From: Polytrichum commune
Lineage: Eukaryota; Streptophyta; Polytrichopsida; Polytrichales; Polytrichaceae
DNA: 64,000 bases
Assembly: GCA_950295325.1 (NCBI GenBank)
Contig: OX485804.1
Location: 29,512,001-29,576,000 of the forward strand
Direction of reading: 5' to 3'
A program made the translations under genes and the position numbers. Numbering within the stretch: position 1 is the stretch's first letter; the number at the start of each line of letters is the position of its first letter. The notes under the pieces were generated by a model. The model saw only the letters and a program-made list of their open reading frames with translations, searched no databases and was not told the origin of the DNA. Shown one piece after another: positions 2,451-31,644 of the stretch.

Positions 2451-2919
2451 TTACTGCTCTACTATATCACTGTCATCATCACTATCTAAATATGGTATAC
2501 CGGATTTATTCCATATTTTATACTGCCACATACATTCTGCCAGTAAATTTTGTATAATTGTAACTCCCCTAAAAAGGTCATTTTCCTTCTTAATTTCTCT
2601 CAATAAAAATAAATATTTTTTACATCGTTTATCTTATTTGGAATTCAAGCATCCTCTATGTGAAAAAAAAATTCTTTTAATTTCAGCAAGCCTTGTTTTT
2701 CCTTCTTGTAGTTCATTACCTTCTCGTAATTCTCCTTCAGTAACTCTTCTAGCTAATTTTTTTCATGCTTTTATAATCTATTCATCTTTCATTCTTTCAT
2801 TATTTACAATGCATATATTGTACAATACTATGCATAAATTGCTATAATATTTGACATATTATTCAATGGCACCTCCAATCGCTTTATTATCAACCTTCAT
2901 CTATTTTTCAATATACCAA
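2451..2919 (-). pseudogene. PIF/Harbinger transposase relic, C-terminal half
   Basis: Read on the minus strand from 2919 downward, this gives FGILKNR-stop-RLIIKRLEV, then after a frameshift VLYNICIVNNE, then a charged tail ending in DSDDDSDIVEQ and a stop at 2451-2453. It aligns residue for residue with the intact transposase at 4226-5635 (FGMLKGRWRILLKRIDV, VLHNICI). A TGA replaces a Trp codon, and there are one or more frameshifts and further stops, so it is dead. The N-terminal half lies 7.8 kb away at 10748-11430. The two halves join exactly at the 8-bp duplication made by the foldback insertion. The join is read directly from the sequence; the family assignment rests on the motifs. Confidence 0.85.
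2912..2919. repeat. Left target-site duplication of foldback element
   Basis: TATACCAA immediately precedes the first base (GGGAATTG) of the foldback element. The same 8 bp follow its last base at 10748-10755. On the minus strand it encodes the FGI portion of the interrupted transposase. Confidence 0.88.
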
Positions 2920-3858
2920 GGGAATTGTTAAAACCACCACGCCTTTTGTTAATGCCACCACGCTCGTGATTTGCAGTCACGTCATTTGGGATTTTACGCG
3001 CGATGTCGGAGTATCTTAAATTAAACTAATTTCTTGGCGGGCCGGACGAGGGCCGCTATATGAACCATTTATGGCGGGGGAAGATCTTTACTATACGCGG
3101 GCCGGTTCTAGGGGGGCGGACATTGGTGGGGCTCACTTATGCCGTCGGCCTCATGTCTTATTTCGGGGAGCCCACCTTTAGGCTCTTGTTGGGCTAGGCG
3201 GGCTTGGTGGCTACGTGGCTACGTGGCTAGGTGGATTAGGCAACTAAGTATAATTCCTTTCTAGGCCTACTTACTACTAAATAACTAGTTGCTTAGGCCT
3301 ACTTACTACTTAATAACTAGTTGGTTAGGCCTACTTACTACTAATTAACTAGTTGTTTAGGCCTACTTACTACTTAATAACTAGTTGGTTAGGCCTACTT
3401 ACTACTAATAAGTAGTTCGTTAGTCTTACTTGCTTAGTGGCAAAGGGTGACTAAGGTTGAGTCAATTCTATTATGTACTCACACATGGTTTACATCTTGA
3501 AAGCAATGTGGGCACTTCCAACTTCGCCCAACATTGTAAGATAACCGGGTCTTAAACGGACATTGTAAGATAACCGGGTCTTAAACGGACATTGTAAGAT
3601 AACCGGGTCTTAAACGGACATTGTAAGGTAAGTAGAATTGATTCAACCTTAGTCATCCTTTGCCACTAAGCAAGTAAGACTAACGAACTACTTATTAGTA
3701 GTAAGTAGGCCTAACCAACTAGTTATTAAGTAGTAAGTAGGCCTAAGCAACTAGTTAATTAGTAGTAAGTAGGCCTAACCAACTAGTTATTAAGTAGTAA
3801 GTAGGCCTAAGCAACTAGTTATTTAGTAGTAAGTAGGCCTAGAAAGGAATTATACTTA
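2920..3858. mobile_element. Foldback transposon, left arm, loop and inner right arm
   Basis: The left arm (2920 to about 3470) is the inverted repeat of 3633-3858 continued by 10431-10747, so the arms are about 545-551 bp with few mismatches. The termini read GGGAATTGTTAAAACC. The arms contain five tandem copies of a 32-bp unit beginning TAGGCCTACTTACTAC (about 3262-3425 in the left arm), which is typical of FB-type elements. The loop (3471-3632) holds three tandem 29-bp copies of ACATTGTAAGATAACCGGGT plus nine more bases. With the interrupting PIF element removed, the element is about 1,256 bp and has no coding capacity, so it is non-autonomous. Foldback elements with 8-9 bp duplications and long arms often belong to the Mutator group, but that assignment is inferred. 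Confidence 0.88.
3532..3627 (+). repeat. 29-bp tandem repeat in foldback loop
   Basis: Three near-perfect head-to-tail copies of a 29-bp unit (ACATTGTAAGATAACCGGGT plus nine bases) and the start of a fourth occupy the loop between the foldback arms. Confidence 0.9.
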
Positions 3859-3871
3859 GGCCCATACCACA
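3859..3871 (+). repeat. Left terminal inverted repeat of PIF element
   Basis: GGCCCATACCACA, preceded by TTA. It pairs with TGTGGTACGGGCC at 10415-10427. Confidence 0.82.
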
Positions 3872-4225
3872 CTATTGGCAGCCATTAGTGCTGTACAGGC
3901 TAGGTTTAGAGATAGGGTGGGGGGTGGCACGTCAGCCGCTGCCTTCTACCCCCACCACACTCTGCCGCCTTTCCTGTCGACCTGTCACCGGTTTGACTTG
4001 CAAACACTTTATGGGGGCCCGGCAGTGAAGGTGCCTGGCAGCTGCCGGGAGGGATGCAAACAGAGGCATGTTACAGGTATTAAAAATCACAGAGAGCTCC
4101 AGAGAGCTCTCTTCTTCTCTGCGACAGAGTAGCTGCTGCTCTCGGGGGTCACAGAGAGCACTCTCTGTGAAGCTCTCTGTGGTTTTTTTAAGTTTTTTAT
4201 TTTAATATATTTTCAAGCTTCGAAC

Positions 4226-5635
4226 ATGGATGCTCAGGGCCGGAAGCTCTTCATTTTGTTCATTTTTCAGTGTTCCTTGTTCGTCATCTTGGAGAGTATG
4301 CCTAGATATGAGGGTTTGATTCATGCGTGGAAGTGGCAACAACTAGGTTATGTGGCCGTGGCACTGCAAAGATACAGGACACATCTCGCGGCGCGCCCAA
4401 GGCGCTTGTGGGCTCATGACAGAGGCTTGCACCGGCCTGGATTCTTTGACCAAAATCTTTTGGGTTCATTCAACGCTCGGGAATTTAAGGGTCGGATGCG
4501 CATGGATGTGTCAACATTCGAATACTTGTGCAGCTCTCTCGCTCCGGTCATGCAAAGACAGGATACAAGCATGCGGCTTGCAGTCCCAGTTCAAGTGAAG
4601 GTTGCCGTATCCATATCAAGACTAGCAACAGGTAATTCAATGCAAAGCATCGCAGACTTGTATAAAATTGGTCTATCTACAAGTCAACTTGCGGTCTCAC
4701 AGTTCAATGCTGCAGTGAAATCAATTTTGCTACAAAAATTCTTGAGATGGCCTTCACCCACCGTAATGGAAAAGTTTGCACAAGAGTTCCAGGACATTCA
4801 CAACATACCTTACGTGATAGGGGCTGTGGATGGCTCCCACATTCCCATTGTGGCTCCGCAGCTACACGCTGCAGATTACTACAATCGTAAGGGATTCCAC
4901 TCCATTCTCTTGCAGGGAGTGGTTTCCAGTAAATGTCTTTTATGGGATTTCGACATCGGATGGGCTGGCTCAATGCACGATGCAAACTTGTGGTCAAGAA
5001 CCGACATTGGGCGATTTTGTGAGGATGGAAGACTTTCGCCCTACGCCCTAGTCGGTGATGCCGCTTATCCGTGTCGCCCTTGGATGCTCTCCCCTTTCAA
5101 AGGCCACAAAGACGGGTTGACAAGAGAAGAGTATCATTGGAATTTTGTGCAAAGCTCGACGCGAATGTGCGTTGAGAGAGCTTTTGGGATGCTCAAGGGG
5201 AGGTGGCGCATATTGTTAAAGAGAATCGACGTTCATTTGAAAAATGTCCCTGAACTAGTGAGCACATGTTTGGTACTTCATAACATCTGCATTATACTTG
5301 GGGATAGTTTTTGGAAAACAGAGTGGTTGCAGGAAGCGACTGACGAGGTGCAGAACGCTCTATCCGCCGGCGCTCAAGTAGGGGCTTCCACACAGGAGAG
5401 ATTGGCCGTTGCAAACCACGCACTGAGCACACTTGCAGGGATCGATGACAACTATAGGGAGAGCATAGAATACATGAAGCAGGAATGTGCTAAAGAGTTC
5501 CAAATTGCAATGGCCACAAGAGGAAAAACACCAAAAGAACTTTGTGCAAGAAGGAATGGGATAGCTAAGAGTCTTTGGATGGCCAAAACAAAAGCATGTA
5601 TTGGAGAAATTTTCCCGGAAAATGACATTTGTTAA
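4226..5635 (+). CDS. PIF/Harbinger (HARBI1-like) transposase
   Basis: An intact 469-residue DDE transposase predicted to cut and rejoin the ends of its own element. The catalytic triad is visible: D202 in GAVDGSHIPI, D278 in LVGDAAYP and E317 in RMCVERAFGMLKGRWR. The WAGSMHDANLW motif (residues 246-256) between the first two is also typical. Length and layout fit DDE_Tnp_4-type nucleases. The N-terminus has a hydrophobic stretch (residues 8-24) that may be non-native, and M25 is an alternative start. The gene is single-exon and undamaged. It ends only 9 bp from the stop of the convergent Myb/SANT-like ORF. In this superfamily the transposase needs the second ORF product for nuclear entry and end recognition (family knowledge). 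Confidence 0.95.
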   Translation: MDAQGRKLFILFIFQCSLFVILESMPRYEGLIHAWKWQQLGYVAVALQRYRTHLAARPRRLWAHDRGLHRPGFFDQNLLGSFNAREFKGRMRMDVSTFEYLCSSLAPVMQRQDTSMRLAVPVQVKVAVSISRLATGNSMQSIADLYKIGLSTSQLAVSQFNAAVKSILLQKFLRWPSPTVMEKFAQEFQDIHNIPYVIGAVDGSHIPIVAPQLHAADYYNRKGFHSILLQGVVSSKCLLWDFDIGWAGSMHDANLWSRTDIGRFCEDGRLSPYALVGDAAYPCRPWMLSPFKGHKDGLTREEYHWNFVQSSTRMCVERAFGMLKGRWRILLKRIDVHLKNVPELVSTCLVLHNICIILGDSFWKTEWLQEATDEVQNALSAGAQVGASTQERLAVANHALSTLAGIDDNYRESIEYMKQECAKEFQIAMATRGKTPKELCARRNGIAKSLWMAKTKACIGEIFPENDIC

Positions 5636-5644
5636 AGCAACTAC

Positions 5645-7517
5645 CTAGAGCTTTTCTACAAGCTTCATCATTGTCTGTTGCATGCTTAAAAGTAATGCCA
5701 TTCTCATTTCGTCACTTGACTTCATTACTTGTATTAGTTTGTCACTGCTATCTTCTATCTTACCAATACATTGCTCTAAAAACAAGTCTTCCTTGCGCTT
5801 GCGCTCGGGGGACTTTGATGTGCTCTCCCCGTCACGAATCTCCACTGTGTTTGTGTCCAATGTAGCACCGCCCTTAGGCCCATCCGGATTCATGGCGCTC
5901 GCATGCGCATGCGACACCACATTGGCCCTGTCATACATAAATTCATCGACGAGCAGGTACCAACGACACTTCTCCGATCGTTGTGACCCCGACTTCGCAT
6001 TCATCGCCTTATCCTCCTTATAGTCGTTGTAGATTGCAGCCCACTTCTTGCGACATGCTTCGCTATCCTTCGTGAAGTCTGGACACATGGAAACGAGCTT
6101 GGTGTGCAATCGCGACCAGTTGTCCACACCTGGAAGCCCACACAAACCCAATGCTTAGATTGTCTTGAGCCCATTGCCATCGGATTGTCTGTATGTGCGA
6201 AAAAAAACCATACATGTTGAAACAAATGCAAAGCCTCCACGTACACCCAAACAATAGCAGACTCTGCCCACAAACATCATCATCAAATACAGTAAAGGAA
6301 TACCTTTCAAATGATTGACTCTTTACCTAAATGTCACCCTATTAAATGCCGGTCCAGAAATAGTGTAGGTAGCTTAAGTTATCGGTTTAAGGTACCTCAA
6401 CCTTATTCTATAGGGTGTTTCAATACGATGTGTCATTGAATCTGTAACAAGATTTTGATGCCTATAAGAAACAGAGACCATACCATACCCACCCTTCTCT
6501 CAAATGATACAATAATGACACACTGGTAGAGATTGAATAATAGGATTGTGTGTCATTCAACCTCTATTAGTGCATTACTGTAACATACTGATGGAGATTT
6601 AATTCTGTAAATTAACCTAAGTGTAGGCTGACCCTATACTCACACTATGCTTGAGGAACCAGAAGAGTATGTGAATGCAAGATGGTTGTAAAGTCTACAT
6701 GGATTTCTACATGACATCCAATGGATTATTTCCAAAAATCACCTCTTGGAGGTAGGCCTATAACAAAACCGAAAAATTATGGCACTAGAAATTCTTTGAA
6801 ATAGCATTTGGTTGAAGGACCGGTCACAAATGACCTCACTCTACACGTGAGGGCCCGTGACCACACTACATGATCATGGCGGTGTGTTGGGACGGTCTTT
6901 GGACACTTACTTTTTAGCCTCTCACAATGTCATGGTCACGGCTCTTGGCTTGTGTGTGAAGTGGGGATCAAAAACATAGCAAGCATAAATATGTGAAAAT
7001 AAAAACCAAAAAATTGTTTTTGAAGGAGAATAAGACCTTGCTTTGGCGGAGCACTGAAAGTCTTTTGCATTTCGCCTCGAATGCTAATGAGCTGTATGAC
7101 CCAGTGGTCTTTCCACGGGCCAACATTCTTCAGTAGCTCGACCTCCTCTTTCACGTCATCCAATTCAACCACCTCGATTTTTTTCTTCAGAGCCTTGCAT
7201 TTTTTCTTAGGTTTGGATTGGTTGGGTTCACATTCTTGGGGGCCACGTTTATGCGACCCATCCGAGAGGTCGATGATTGCGGGAGGACTGCCTTGGATTG
7301 GGGGCGGGAATCCCAAGCCATGAACATGTGGCATGAACGAATGCGGAAACATGAAGGGCATTTGATTTGGTGCACTCCCGAATCCTTGGAAAAATGGAGG
7401 CTGAGGCACAACCGGGAGCTGTGAACGGAATTGTGTGGGAATTGGCGGTGGAGAGGAACCTGTCGCCCCATTGTGCGTGGATCCATTGACATTGGGTTGT
7501 GTCCCATGTGAGTCCAT
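5645..7517 (-). CDS. PIF/Harbinger second ORF, Myb/SANT-like DNA-binding protein
   Basis: Two exons, 7037-7517 and 5645-6129, join to a 321-residue protein. The donor after 7037 reads CAAG|GTCTTA and the acceptor before 6129 reads TTCCAG|GTGTGG, together giving an in-frame KQGVDNWSRL junction. The start chosen is MDSHGTQ. Residues 1-100 are Pro/Gly/Asn-rich and low in complexity, followed by a Lys-rich patch (PKKKCKALKKK) that may be a nuclear signal. The DNA-binding module spans about 135-225: WKDHWVIQLI, then NWSRLHTKLV, CRKKWAAIYNDYK and a Trp-Tyr motif, as in MADF/Myb-SANT trihelix folds. The tail (about residues 290-321) is helical with Met/Leu-rich heptads. The 907-bp intron contains a MITE. 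No stop or frameshift is seen. Confidence 0.88.
6634..6964 (+). mobile_element. Tourist-like MITE copy in intron of second ORF
   Basis: A partial, diverged copy of the roughly 500-bp family also found at 18922, 48840, 50788 and 56430. It starts within the CTTGAGGAACC segment and ends GGCTTGTGTGTGAAGTGG, where the terminal repeat breaks off. It lies wholly inside the intron of the Myb/SANT-like gene (6130-7036), so the ORF can still be spliced. Confidence 0.75.
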
Positions 7518-7596
7518 CTTGGGTAGCTGGAAAAAAACAAAACACCGTAAGGGAAATCCTTGAATCAAATTATGAGCTTCAACCCAACAATCACAT

Positions 7597-7935
7597 GTGA
7601 CAGTCCCAAAGACAAAGCAACCAAAAAATATAAAAAAAATAAAAAATAAAAAAAATCAGACAGACATCAACTCCTGGCGGTTACATCTTTTGGTTTCGGT
7701 GAACCTGTTCCCAACTAGCAGTTCGGGGATAGCCGAACTGCTAGTTACAGATGAACCAGTTGAGATTATCGAGAATCACCGGTTGAAGTTCAAGACCTCA
7801 GGAAAAAAAATCACCTATCTTTGTAGAGGAACCTGTGGAGTCTATGATCGGGAGAACCGGCAATTGCACACAAATGAACTGGTTGAGTTTGAGGAACCTG
7901 TGGAGTCTATATATGTATGTATGCATTGCAAGTGG
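7597..7935 (+). repeat. Dispersed repeat shared with 16076-16254
   Basis: Forward translation here (LLVTDEPVE, then KKITYLCRGTCGVYDREN) resembles the minus-strand translation at 16076-16254 (LVVDEPVEF, then RKFTYHFRGIYRIYLKR). The plus strand of both also has ACATCTTTTGGTTT near one edge. This suggests a repeat with inverted ends rather than a gene. I do not recognise the coded sequence. Confidence 0.45.
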
Positions 7936-8002
7936 GCATGGTCTAGTCTAACCAATTTTGACAACCATATTCTCCTCATGCTCTATGGCACTTTTCATGC
8001 AG

Positions 8003-9537
8003 GTTTCATGGATAAGCAGTCTGCAAGCATTATGGAGATTGGACCTCGGCCGCAATCAACTGACCTCATGTGCTGATGTCGGCAATTTCGCTTCTATTGA
8101 GCAGCTCTCAGTTGATAATAACCAGATCTCATCCCTGAAGGTTCACCTACTTTCTGCCAGCCTTTTCATATCATCATTAGTATTAGCAATTGTAAGATCT
8201 TCCATTGAAAATACTGCCAATAAGAGACGGATAAGAAAATTAGTGATGTGAAATTACTCCCAAGCCTTATCACATATACTCAGTTTTATTATTCCTTTCT
8301 TTAGAAGTAATGAGGAGGTACACTCGCATAGAGCCAAATATGTACATCACTGATCCTGCAGGGACTGGAGAACTTGGTGTGCTTGATGGAGCTATATGCA
8401 CAAAATAACTGCATCACAGAAATAGCTGAGACCAACTACATCCGGGAGTTGCCTAAACTTATGGTGGTCAATTTCTCTGGCAATGGCTTTTGTGGAGCTC
8501 ATGATTATCGGCTTTATACTGTGTACTCCCTGCGAAAACTCAAGGTATGACAATTGTCTCCAGGAAAATAAGCCTCGCCTAATTGATAAAAGTCCGAGTC
8601 TAATCCCCGTCAGATTCTTTTATGATATATAGATTCATTAAGGTAAGTACTAAAAAAATTTTAAATCAAGGAAGGCAGACAACCACAGTCATTTGTATGC
8701 GTGCTAAGACAAGCAGGGATATCAGCATATTCGAGTGTATCATCTTGAAAATCACCCTGAATAAAACATTCAGGAAGAAAGCAAAACAATGAACGAATTG
8801 AGATTTGACCTAAATGAAAATGACAAAAGAAGTCTTTAGGAAAGCCTTTCCTGTGGACCAACCCTAACTTAGAGAACAATCACTATACTGAACCTTTGGG
8901 TTGAATCCCTTTGAGAACCACAGTTTTATTGGACGTGGCCAGAGACAATCTCCATGTGGTTGGCATGTTGCAGGTTCTAGACAACTTGAATGTGGAGAGT
9001 ACAGAACTCGCAGAGGCACGCAGTAAGTACACAGGGCGTCTCACCAGAGAGATGCAGGAGGAATATTTGGGTCACAAGGAACTTGAAATTGCGGAGGTCA
9101 AAGTCGATTCCATAGCTACTATTTCAAAGTTGATTCCTTGTTTTGTACAAACTGCGGACGCACAGGTGTTCTTATTCAGGACACATTAGGTGAGCATTAG
9201 ACTGTTCTGAACAATTTGCCAACTTGGAAGACCGGGCCTCAACATTGGGAGTAACTCTTAAATAGAATCTTCAAACCACCTTCTATCCTACACGACAAAT
9301 CAAGCATTTGAGGACTGTTGTGCACAGTTTGCAATGTATATTGTTTGCCTAGCCTTGATGTAATATCAAACATGCACTATCTCTATTCAGCCATTCTGGA
9401 TTTTTGGTGTGCAGGTGTTGGATTTGTCAGATAGAAGAATAAGACATTGTGGGGATGTGTTTGAGTCAATGAATTTCCAGAACTTGAGGGAGCTCAACCT
9501 AAACAACAACATGATATCTGCTGTGGATCCTCTCAAG
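8003..9537 (+). pseudogene. Captured LRRC9-like leucine-rich-repeat gene fragment (four exons)
   Basis: Four exons with splice signals lie in order. At 8003-8140, TTTCATGCAG precedes and AAG|GTTCAC follows; it encodes LWRLDLGRNQLTS and IEQLSVDNNQISSLK. At 8362-8544, ATCCTGCAG precedes and AAG|GTATGA follows; it encodes LMELYAQNNCITEIAE and LMVVNFSGNGFCG. At 8974-9189, ATGTTGCAG precedes and GTGAGC follows; it encodes VLDNLNVESTELAEARSKYT. At 9415 to about 9537, GGTGTGCAG precedes; it encodes VLDLSDRRIRH and LRELNLNNNMIS. LRR units (LxxLxLxxNxI) and the VLDN...YTGRLT cap resemble LRRC9, a long multi-LRR protein. The frame closes with TAG at the end of exon three and there is no start, so it is a fragment. 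It lies inside the PIF element. Confidence 0.75.
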
Positions 9538-9779
9538 TAAAGTTCCTCAACCCCAAAGAGATAACTCCTACTGTAATGCTCTAATTCACCATGCTCTACT
9601 CCTTTTCTCAAAAACCATATCTCTGGAAGTTCTGCCATCAATTGGAAGCATTGCCCATCCTTGGCTTCAAGAGTCTTATTATATTCAGCATCAGGAACCA
9701 TATGTGGTTGGATGCAAACAGAGCATACATGAAGTGTGTCTCTATTGAGCTAGACAGAAAACCTGGTGCATTTCGTGTC

Positions 9780-10414
9780 ACATGAAGAGGTGATTAAGGC
9801 TGGAGGGAGAACGCCACAAACCAGCAATCCAAGGCCACACACACGCTTCAATTTTTTTTCTTTGAAGCTTATTCATCAACACTCAATGTCTGTGCCGAAT
9901 TTACCTGCTAATTGAGTGCCGAACCTACACAGATTTCTGTACCTAAACCCAAGAGTATTGTGGCGTACCTAACCAGTGCCGAAATTCAAGAGGATTGAAT
10001 TGCCGGGGAAGCAAAAACAAAACAAAAAACCAGGGATTGGCTTCGAAGCTGCAATTCCTTCAAAGCTGCGGCCAGGGAGGGTGTGGGAGGAGGAGGGTGG
10101 AGGAGGGAGGAGTGTGGCGGAGGGGAGTGGCGACCTGTGGGGAGCTCAGAGCAGGAGCGAGAGTGAGCGAAGGAGAAATGGTCGGAGCTCGGAGCAAGAG
10201 CGGGGAGAGAGTGTGCCGAAGGAGGCGCCACCTGGGGACCCGACGTCTGATGTGGCACGGCAGGGTCCCTCTACCATAGTATTTTCCCTGGCAGAGTGTC
10301 CCTGCCGCTCTCCCATGCCAGCTCAGATTGCCTCTCACCTGCCTGCCGAGGGTGTGGTGAATGGCAGGTGGGCTCGGCCAATGGGGGCAAGCAATACGCC
10401 TTGCCTCCCCCCCA
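9780..10414. other. Right interior of PIF element, GC-rich, no gene
   Basis: A purine-rich block (10070-10250, GGAGG/GGAGC runs) followed by a GC-rich stretch up to the right terminal repeat. Several open frames cross it on both strands, but they overlap one another, are low in complexity and match no family I recognise, so I call none. It may hold subterminal sites for the transposase. Confidence 0.5.
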
Positions 10415-10427
10415 TGTGGTACGGGCC
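10415..10427 (-). repeat. Right terminal inverted repeat of PIF element
   Basis: TGTGGTACGGGCC, followed by TTA at 10428-10430. It is the partner of 3859-3871 with one mismatch. Confidence 0.82.
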
Positions 10428-10747
10428 TTAGTTGCCTAATCCACGTAGCCACGTAGCCACCGAGCCCGCCTAGCCCAACAAGAGCCTAAAGGTGGGCTCC
10501 CCGAAATAAGACATGAGGCCGACGGCATAAGTGAGCCCCACCAATGTCCGCCCCCCTAGAACCGGCCCGCGTATAGTAAAGATCTTCCCCCGCCATAAAT
10601 GGTTCATATAGCGGCCCTCGTCCGGCCCGCCAAGAAATTAGTTTAATTTAAGATACTCCGACATCGCGCGTAAAATCCCAAATGACGTGATTGCAAATCA
10701 CGAGCGTGGTGGCATTAACAAAAGGCGTGGTGGTTTTAACAATTCCC
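10428..10747. mobile_element. Foldback transposon, outer part of right arm
   Basis: Reverse complement of 2920 to about 3246, ending CAATTCCC at 10747. It is the distal remainder of the foldback right arm, separated from 3633-3858 by the PIF insertion. Bases 10428-10430 are the second copy of the PIF target duplication TTA. Confidence 0.88.
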
Positions 10748-10755
10748 TATACCAA
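10748..10755. repeat. Right target-site duplication of foldback element
   Basis: TATACCAA, identical to 2912-2919, abuts the last base of the right arm. Confidence 0.88.
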
Positions 10756-11727
10756 ATGTCATTTCTACACATATTCTAGTTGAAGACTTAATAAAAATCT
10801 AGTTTGCCTCTTTGCCGGACAAACAGACTTAAACAAACTGTGCATCCAAGGCCTCACCGGATACAAAACGTCTTCGACAAGTTTGTACGGCTGGAATTTT
10901 CCTTCTATACATGCTTGTCCGATTCTTGTTACCTAAAATACAGCCCAAGCATGTAGACTTTATACCCATCCGAATTCATTATCCCAAAACATACAATCTA
11001 GTCCAACAATCATTTGTAAAATTGTTGAGTGGAATGATTTCATACGGTAATAGTCTTCTCCACGGACTATCAGAACTAGAACAAGAATATGCAAATCGTT
11101 TATTGCCCCTATAATGTATGGTATATCATGTAGTTGTTCGAACATTGTAGTTAAAACCCTAAACTGCGATTCATCCAATGTTTGTACAAAAACTGGTTGC
11201 AAATGCTTCCTAACAACCCTACAGAATTCCCTTATTATTTTTGACAATGTGCTCTTATAAACTCCATACAAGTCTCTTATGTTTTACAGTCCATCGCTGC
11301 TACCTTACATATGCAATGACATTGCTACCTTCTCTTGCACCGGTATAATAACTCTAAAATGGGTGTCTTCTTTCTTCAAATACGGGTCCAACCTATCACA
11401 CAAAAATCTGAAAGTATTATATTTCACTCAAGTTCACTTCCTAAACTCTCTCTCTCTCTCCGTCCACAATCCCAACAACAAGTGCTCTACAAATTTGGAC
11501 ATCCGTTCTTGACTCCATATGCTCATCTCTCTATCGCCATACTCCCATAAACCAAGCTCAAAATTGCAAACTTCTCCCACTCTCCTTGCAAAAGCAATGT
11601 TTGAATGTCCACAACATGTTTCACAAGCATGTACAAAAACATATATAATTCTACGAGCAAAACAAGGCTCCTCCTCCTCTCCTCCATTACAACCATACTT
11701 GCTAAAATTCAAAGTGAAAACAACCAA
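10748..11727 (-). pseudogene. PIF/Harbinger transposase relic, N-terminal half
   Basis: Minus-strand translation gives FRFLCDRLDPYLKKED, IPVQEKVAMSLHM, LHDIPYIIGAIND, YKLVEDVLYPVRPWMHSLFK and finally SSTRICVEMTFGI. It runs straight into the foldback target site and continues at 2919. The order matches the intact transposase at 4226-5635. The first catalytic Asp is Asn here (GAIND against GAVDG), the second Asp (VEDV) and the Glu (CVEM) remain, and there are frameshifts. The strand above about 11430 (to 11727) stays open and may be its N-terminus, but is less certain. This is an older, separate family member, not a piece of the intact element. Confidence 0.85.
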
Positions 11728-30075: not shown

Positions 30076-30600
30076 GCTGCCGTTGGAGATTGCCTAATAA
30101 TTTTCTCCCGAAAAACTCTGGTGACAGGACTACAAATTCCCTCATTTAAATCCTCTGCCAACCTTTCTTGTTCTTAGTCTCCATTCTTGATGCTCAAAAT
30201 CCAGTTGAGCAATCTCAGCCTGAGGGTAGAGAGCCAGTCTGTGCACATTGCTGCCGTTGAAGATTGCCTAATCATCTTCTTCAACGAAACTCTGGTGACA
30301 GAAGTTGTGATTTCTACATATTCCCGCATTCAAATCCTCTGCCAACCTTTTCTTGTTTTTCTTAGGGTTCATTTTTGAAGCTCAAAATCCAGTTGAGCAA
30401 TCTCAGCCTGAGGGTAGAGAGCCAGATCTGTGCAAATTGCTGCCGTTGAAGATTGCCTAATAATCTTTTTCAACAAAAGTTTATTGATAGGACTTGCGAT
30501 TTCCGCAAGTTTATCATACAAATTCCTCTGCCAGACCTTTTAGGTTCTTCTTCTCCACCTCCATTCTTTCGAGCTCGAAACCGATCCTGTCGAGGTTGCA
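30076..30600 (+). repeat. Three-copy tandem repeat in promoter/leader of transporter gene
   Basis: The unit GCTGCCGTTG-AGATTGCCTAAT starts at 30076, 30250 and 30439 (periods of 174 and 189 bp). It includes CTCTGGTGACAG, CAAATCCTCTGCCAACC and, between units, CAGTTGAGCAATCTCAGCCT. The last copy runs into the ATG of the transporter at 30601. It probably spans promoter and 5' leader, so copy number could change transcription start use. No TATA box was assigned. Confidence 0.85.
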
Positions 30601-31644
30601 ATGGACACGGTGGCGATGGGCAACACAAAGGCAGCCACCGTCAGCGTCGTACTGGGATACGCACTCTGCTCCAGCCTGCTGGCCGTCATCAACAAACTTG
30701 CCGTCACATGCTTCCCATATCCGGCACTCCTGACGGCAATGCAGTACCTGACCTCAGCAGCAGGGGTGATTTTGGCAGGCAAGCTAAACCTAATCACACA
30801 TGACCGCTGGACATGGTCGACCGCAAGAAAGTTTTTCCCGGCAGCCTTGGTGTTCTACCTGGCCATCTTCTTCAACACCAACCTCCTGAAGCATGCCAAC
30901 GTTGACACATTTATTGTGTTCAGATCCGCAACTCCACTCCTGGTGGCCATAGCTGACACTGTCTTCAGAAAACAACCCCTCCCTTCCACATGGACATTCG
31001 GTGCCCTAATTGTGATCCTTGGTGGAGCAGTGGGCTATGTTGCAACAGACTCCCAATTCTCAGTCACCGCATACTCCTGGGCAGTGGCATATTTGGCAGT
31101 GATTTGCACTGAAATGGTGTATGTGAAGCAGATGGTGACAGACTTGGATCTCAACACATGGGGTTATGTCTTGTACAACAATGTCATTTCCCTCTTGCTC
31201 TCCCCCTTCTTCTGGCTCCTCATGGGAGAGTATAAGATGATGATGACCACAACTGCTCCACAGGCGAGTGAAAATACTTTTGCGAGTGTTTCCGCAGTTG
31301 CTTTGAGCTGTGTGTTCGGGATGGCCATCAGTTTCTTCGGTTTTGCAGCCAGGAAGGCTATCTCGGCCACTGCATTCACCGTGACCGGAGTTGTAAACAA
31401 GCTGCTTACTGTGGTCATCAATGTGTTGATCTGGGATAAGCATGCCAGCAACTTGGGATTGCTTTGCCTTCTTGTCACAATTGCTGGTGGAATCATGTAC
31501 CAGCAGGCAACATCATCGGTTTCCAAAAAGCCTTGCAGTTTGCCCTCCGAAGTTGCTGCGGAGGATGAGGAGAAAGGGTTACTGTTGATTGCCGAGGAGG
31601 CAATTGCGTCTGTCAAGGAGATCAAGGTGGTGGAAAATAAATGA
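30601..31644 (+). CDS. GFT1: Golgi GDP-L-fucose transporter, GFT1/GONST4-like
   Basis: An intact single-exon gene for a 347-residue nucleotide-sugar transporter of the drug/metabolite (TPT/NST) superfamily. It is predicted to exchange cytosolic GDP-L-fucose for luminal GMP in the Golgi, supplying fucosylation of xyloglucan, pectins and glycoproteins. It is recognised by GYALCSSLLAVINKLA near the N-terminus, NTNLLKHANVDTFIVFRS (about 100-117), GAVGYVATDS (about 147-156), SWAVAYLAVICTEMVYVKQM, NTWGYVLYNN, and the signature GFAARKAISATAFTVTGVVNK followed by LTVVINVLIWDKHA. Eight to ten hydrophobic segments span the protein. The C-terminal tail is cytosolic, acidic and Lys-rich, usual for the family. 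The start is the first ATG after the leader repeat. Substrate is inferred from close similarity to Arabidopsis GONST4/GFT1. Confidence 0.93.
   Translation: MDTVAMGNTKAATVSVVLGYALCSSLLAVINKLAVTCFPYPALLTAMQYLTSAAGVILAGKLNLITHDRWTWSTARKFFPAALVFYLAIFFNTNLLKHANVDTFIVFRSATPLLVAIADTVFRKQPLPSTWTFGALIVILGGAVGYVATDSQFSVTAYSWAVAYLAVICTEMVYVKQMVTDLDLNTWGYVLYNNVISLLLSPFFWLLMGEYKMMMTTTAPQASENTFASVSAVALSCVFGMAISFFGFAARKAISATAFTVTGVVNKLLTVVINVLIWDKHASNLGLLCLLVTIAGGIMYQQATSSVSKKPCSLPSEVAAEDEEKGLLLIAEEAIASVKEIKVVENK

Follow-up and report, generated by a model that had tools for sequence, protein, structure and literature searches.

A piece of a host leucine-rich-repeat gene, probably acquired by repair, within a PIF/Harbinger transposon of Polytrichum commune

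Captures of host DNA by PIF elements, which include both exons and introns and which lie outside of the transposase and ORF1 regions, were described for grapevine in 2008 (PMC2528002, here as represented by its available sections). Gisby and Catoni (2022, PMC8903248) likewise describe PIF Pack-TYPE elements of rice and maize; in the pipeline used there, to the extent that the available text describes it, any transposase match caused an element to be designated autonomous, and repeated clusters were kept. A 2026 review (PMC13317346), in its available part, describes one route to capture--the Pack-CACTA hybrid of two neighbouring elements--and states that a yet undiscovered mechanism might exist by which DNA transposons copy unlinked host DNA.

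Here a 64,000-nucleotide stretch of the Polytrichum commune genome (termed here the window; G000:C2:29512001-29576000) is analysed in the light of these systems, together with searches of the genome, which comprised 407.8 Mb in 64 contigs, about 406 Mb of it in C1-C7. This analysis points with good confidence to a PIF/Harbinger transposon (termed here the window Harbinger) having acquired a 1.8-kb piece of a host leucine-rich-repeat (LRR) gene by repair and having later moved together with this cargo. Positions given below are those of the window unless another locus is named.

The window Harbinger occupies 3859..10427 (6569 bp), with ends GGCCCATACCACAC and GGCCCGTACCACAT as read by eye, and is flanked by a TTA target duplication (left 3856..3858, right 10428-10430; also by eye). 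Its 13-bp terminal inverted repeats, GGCCC[A/G]TACCACA, match by eye at 12 of 13 positions. These short inverted repeats, the 3-bp TTA/TAA duplication and a DDE_Tnp_4 transposase are features of the PIF/Harbinger class, and all of them were found here. The transposase is encoded by an intact open reading frame of 469 aa (4226..5635, + strand), in which Pfam identifies DDE_Tnp_4 (PF13359) at 115 bits versus a cut-off of 24.8 (E 3.3e-33); at the nucleotide level it is 95.6% identical to relative L008 and 95.9% identical to relative L009, with dN/dS ratios of 0.27 and 0.22, respectively (0.42 for L008 versus L009). A second PIF protein, ORF2, is encoded on the - strand at 5648..7517, with one exon running from 7517 to about 7037 and another within 6154-5648, the splice sites having been inferred by eye; both exon stretches are matched by L008-L012. 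ORF2 weakly matches PF13837 (Myb/SANT-like) at 19.6 bits, which is under the cut-off of 27, and its first exon has no Pfam match. To judge from its sequence, the window Harbinger is structurally intact, and its mobility is predicted from the intact transposase reading frame and from the constraint upon it. (Two of the relatives carry 713 extra bases in the ORF2 intron--L008 3425-4137 and the corresponding part of L009; this stretch was considered as a second capture and rejected, as the genome search matched it to those two loci only and found no donor.)

The window Harbinger sits within one arm of a palindromic (foldback) element, termed here element X, which spans 2920..10747 including the Harbinger and whose own parts lie on either side of it at 2920-3858 and 10431-10747. 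Element X was recognized by its inverted arms, by further copies and by an empty copy, L021; its 8-bp target duplication, TATACCAA, occurs at 2912..2919 and again at 10748-10755 (by eye). The outer arms, which are more than 300 bp long, are nearly identical, and there are other genomic copies, the better of which match at 90-99%. The empty copy L021 has its own, different 8-bp duplication, TATCCTAT, and is uninterrupted at the Harbinger site: the joined X flanks align with it across the junction over 547 columns at 97%, with one gap, which is present because one Harbinger base was left in the joined query. Since L021 is uninterrupted across the site, the Harbinger does terminate at its 13-bp ends, so that one of the conditions under which the preliminary description would have been refuted does not hold; the TTA duplication and the ends of two short copies, L005 (745 bp) and L006 (712 bp), both on contig C3, bear this out as well. 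The left ends of these short copies are identical to that of the window Harbinger, their right ends differ from it at two bases in L005 and at one in L006, and their target duplications read by eye as TAA and TTA, respectively. Near the left end they have about 20 bp in common that are absent from the window Harbinger; hence neither arose from it by deletion alone, and the two look like a separate branch on the basis of this comparison. A motif search found no clean paired ends comparable to those of the window Harbinger in the distant relatives L008-L012.

Two further open frames were observed elsewhere in the window. One, at 10960-11283 (-), has a translation that appears transposase-like to the eye and that has no Pfam match; the other, at 30544-31641 (+), encodes 366 aa with a triose-phosphate-transporter/EamA-like domain and is probably a normal gene of the host.

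Between ORF2 and the right end of the window Harbinger lies the captured LRR gene piece (7908..9703, + strand), which consists of a partial intron, four exons with the three introns between them, and another partial intron. The exons, termed here a through d, lie on the + strand at 8003..8140 (138 nt), 8362..8544 (183 nt), 8974..9165 (192 nt) and 9415..9536 (122 nt); reading on from exon d through its splice donor leads to a TAA at 9538-9540. The gene from which they came is a many-exon LRR gene on the same chromosome, 12.6 Mb away (G000:C2:42091334-42093122, i.e., L007 4335-6123). Of 1591 candidates in the genome search with 7530-9840, 40 were scored, and among these no locus apart from the window itself and this donor matched strongly (94% over 1.8 kb for the donor); the remaining matches are about 130 bp or shorter, and no third strong copy of the captured piece was found. 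The four captured exons are collinear with four consecutive internal exons among the 10 joined donor exons, which form a single open frame of 869 aa (15 donor exons were tried by eye, of which five, some with unclear limits, were omitted from the join). Each captured exon keeps its AG acceptor and GT donor (8/8 splice-site dinucleotides). Relative to the donor, the exons differ at 20 of 635 positions and show neither an indel nor an in-frame stop; the introns differ at 60 of 1146 positions and show eight indels. Because the introns were retained, the source was DNA rather than mRNA. Pfam finds LRR_4, LRR_8 and LRR_9 repeats in the donor protein, the gene being rich in leucine-rich repeats, and a PDB search with this protein returned generic LRR proteins, none of them named LRRC9, among the best 60 of 196 matches; the donor protein as translated here is an LRR protein, for which the LRRC9-like designation of the preliminary description is a putative one.

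The preliminary description had recognized four collinear exons with preserved splice sites between ORF2 and the right end, and the donor alignment confirms this; the extent it had reported was 8003-9537, and the matching stretch with its introns is longer (7908-9703). It had also proposed that a parental gene be sought in the same genome, where one was indeed found and aligned, introns included, at 94%.

Two observations concern the introns. A high-copy MITE in an intron of the donor (L007 ~4093-4334) has one edge no more than a few bases from where the captured match begins on the left, which may be coincidental or may have to do with the cause of the breakpoint. Within 8729-8850, a part of the b-c intron, some 80-110 bp have further matches, at 83-87%, to three loci; an Rfam search of 7500-10450 gave two matches under the gathering score, taken as chance, and none at 8729-8850.

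The captured piece is absent from all eight relatives fetched (L005, L006 and L008-L013). These are a subset of the 28 and 55 matches from two element searches, the rest of which were covered by the genome search with 7530-9840; thus the question raised earlier of whether other copies of the element carry the exons is answered by zero of eight fetched relatives and by no third strong match in that genome search. The acquired insert as a whole (about 2.09 kb, 7665..9751) has been delimited from L013, the sole relative that has both insert sides: its counterparts of 7562-7615 and of 9764-9884 are separated by 49 bp. The matching stretches of L013 are short (54 bp at 94%, 121 bp at 77% and 133 bp at 80%), and neither a transposase match in L013 nor a further copy of its junction in the genome was found. 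Because L013 alone keeps both sides, and does so with short matches and without a transposase match, the insert limits are approximate (left 7616-7680, right 9704-9763). The insert is absent from L008-L012 too. To its right, the native right end of the Harbinger (9759..10427) is 98% identical to L005 (from 9840) and to L006 (from 9859), and L013 matches it over 9764-10005. The earlier proposal that a PIF/Harbinger element captured genomic DNA is therefore upheld by a donor that has been found, introns that align with it, element ends that have been verified and fetched relatives that lack the piece.

What surrounds the gene piece within the insert resembles a scar. To its left is filler consisting of dispersed-repeat pieces (7713..7896), of which 7724-7839 and 7844-7896 match many loci; this dispersed repeat has at least 42 further matches in the genome. 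The filler includes a 14-bp inverted repeat (7713-7726/7733-7746), and a 20-bp stretch is duplicated at 7826 and at 7891, the second copy running to 7910. To the right of the gene piece, 48 bp (9704..9751) separate it from the native right end; this stretch has no genome match, and comparison with the donor locus and its surroundings (L007, L022) gave chance-level short matches only. The motif AGACAGA flanks the insert on the left (7658..7664, +), where it is aligned to an AGACAGA of L013, and on the right (9752..9758, +), where pairing with the AGACAGA of L013 is a chosen register; in the computed L013 alignment the left copy pairs with AGACAGA and on the right neighbouring letters are paired instead, which counts slightly against the repair reading. 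These are the sole + strand copies of the motif within the Harbinger. In random draws, 206 of 20000 shared a 7-mer between 20-bp windows, with pairs less than 300 bp apart having been skipped but counted.

Break repair with template switching would be expected to leave such a patchwork of sequences from unlinked places, and it is from this scar that we infer such switching. A break inside the Harbinger (e.g., the gap left by an excision) would have been repaired, and the LRR piece would have entered at that time: the repair copy may have left its Harbinger template for a dispersed repeat, gone on from there to the LRR gene and finally returned to the Harbinger, possibly duplicating AGACAGA in the process. 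The Harbinger would have kept its transposase and ORF2 and would later, cargo included, have inserted into element X.

Alternatively, a second transposon--a Helitron, a MULE or some other element--could have brought the LRR piece into the Harbinger, and AGACAGA would then represent the target duplication of that second element. Such nesting accords with the well-known ability of Helitrons and MULEs to carry gene pieces, with the occurrence of the motif near both ends of the insert, and with the dispersed-repeat sequence in the left part of the insert. On the other hand, no inverted ends were seen at the insert limits by eye, nor are there any among the 25 listed of 34 inverted-repeat pairs, and the parts of the insert were matched at different places, genome searches having given no second copy of the whole. 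Helitron ends have the form TC...CTRR between A and T, with a 3' hairpin; inspection by eye of the element sequence and its junctions for such ends or hairpin turned up nothing beyond chance-level motifs and no convincing Helitron termini. A nested transposon is unlikely, and gap repair with template switching is favoured over it because dispersed-repeat fragments adjoin the gene piece. A hybrid of two neighbouring elements, as in the Pack-CACTA mechanism, was considered separately and is not favoured: the 18 kb retrieved from the donor region (L007, L022) contain no Harbinger sequence, and the piece is joined to unrelated repeats.

The order of events under the repair reading can be approached through sequence differences. 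The arms of element X differ from each other at 2 of 320 aligned sites (plus nine gap columns), which is significantly fewer than the 60 of 1146 positions at which the captured introns differ from the donor (Fisher P 5e-5); the right end of the Harbinger differs from L005 at 8/564 (P 6e-5) and from L006 at 11/569 (P 0.001). Given similar rates, these differences imply that the capture predates the arrival in X as well as the L005/L006 split, so that the element moved with its cargo; by this comparison, the Harbinger probably moved into X after the capture. This dating presupposes that neutral rates are equal, that the X arms have not undergone conversion, and that the donor was this very allele; either arm conversion or a donor allele that had already diverged would undo the capture-first order.

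Does the cargo have a function? When spliced, it yields an open frame of 218 codons that starts with an ATG at 7985, runs through the four exons and ends with the TAA at 9538--that is, a predicted 218-aa LRR protein. The captured exons differ from the donor by 12 synonymous and 8 nonsynonymous changes (dN/dS 0.18). For a fragment that had drifted over half of the divergence, the probability of so few nonsynonymous changes is 0.006-0.019, or 0.016-0.048 when the neutral baseline takes in the introns as well. Such a ratio is unexpected for a fragment drifting over half of the divergence, and has been counted against the simple-capture reading; it is a weak hint of function, which older divergence of the donor explains equally well. 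The boldest readings of these data, namely that this is a working three-gene PIF transposon with an expressed and selected LRR cassette, or that the cargo came from a related lineage and would thus mark a transfer of the element, are quite improbable. That the exons are functional cargo, with the predicted 218-aa protein being expressed and kept by selection, is a very doubtful proposition as well: a spliced frame that is open from a start codon to a stop codon, the low dN/dS and the confinement of indels to the introns would fit it, but divergence before the capture (with another allele, a paralog or a related species as the donor) gives the same pattern and also fits the younger element dates, and the ATG at 7985 falls in what used to be an intron and has a counterpart in that of the donor. 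The cargo is most likely a mobile pseudogene fragment with no function under selection. It could yield sense LRR transcripts; because the captured exons are on the + strand, antisense RNA would need transcription of the - strand, such as an ORF2 transcript that starts from the right end and passes through the insert. Finally, that the exons are those of a duplicated host gene hit by transposon insertions--a concern raised in the preliminary description, and one for which their being intact and in order might speak--is hardly credible, being contradicted by native Harbinger sequence on either side, by relatives that lack the exons and among which the two sides lie close together, and by the rest of 2800-10900, no part of which matches the 10-kb donor locus L007.

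This locus brings together, in one genome, a well-bounded PIF/Harbinger capture with an intact transposase reading frame, its donor, an insert-free relative, an empty site and a filler scar. It thus adds a useful data point on the copying of unlinked host DNA by DNA transposons; knowledge of which elements can capture genes is unchanged by it. The earlier remark that gene capture is much less known for PIF/Harbinger than for other elements is fair as a comparison, to be read alongside the precedents in PMC2528002, PMC8903248 and PMC2572040. The titles and abstract openings covered by the literature searches showed no gene capture by a PIF element in a moss or fern.

Among these precedents, Pifvine-3 of grapevine (Benjak et al. 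2008, PMC2528002) is similar in having, outside of ORF1 and the transposase, a long extra region that for the majority of cases matches the host genome, both exons and introns. In the available sections of that report, captures are frequent and some are common to several copies, whereas here there is one capture in one copy; conversely, a relative without the capture and an empty target site are demonstrated here. The KI-MULE and ULP-carrying MULEs (as cited via the available part of PMC2528002) likewise have host-derived coding sequence beside a transposase gene, but belong to another superfamily than the window Harbinger and have a different target duplication and a different transposase. 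In C. elegans, the Harbinger-superfamily element Turmoil-1 (Sela et al. 2008, PMC2572040) has acquired host coding sequence; as described in the accessible text, however, its pieces lie in long inverted repeats, whereas here the piece is interior, beside ORF2. PIF Pack-TYPE elements (PMC8903248, available part) share with the window Harbinger terminal inverted repeats, captured coding DNA and, for the most part, a TTA/TAA target duplication, and host coding DNA between terminal inverted repeats was found here. Pack-TYPE elements are non-autonomous by definition, however, whereas the window Harbinger has a 469-aa transposase reading frame; and the repeated clusters kept in that work contrast with a cargo that is present in one element copy and that is strongly matched at two loci only, here and at the donor. 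Compared with these systems, the window Harbinger is a clean new example of a kind of capture already known for PIF/Harbinger elements, and not a new phenomenon.
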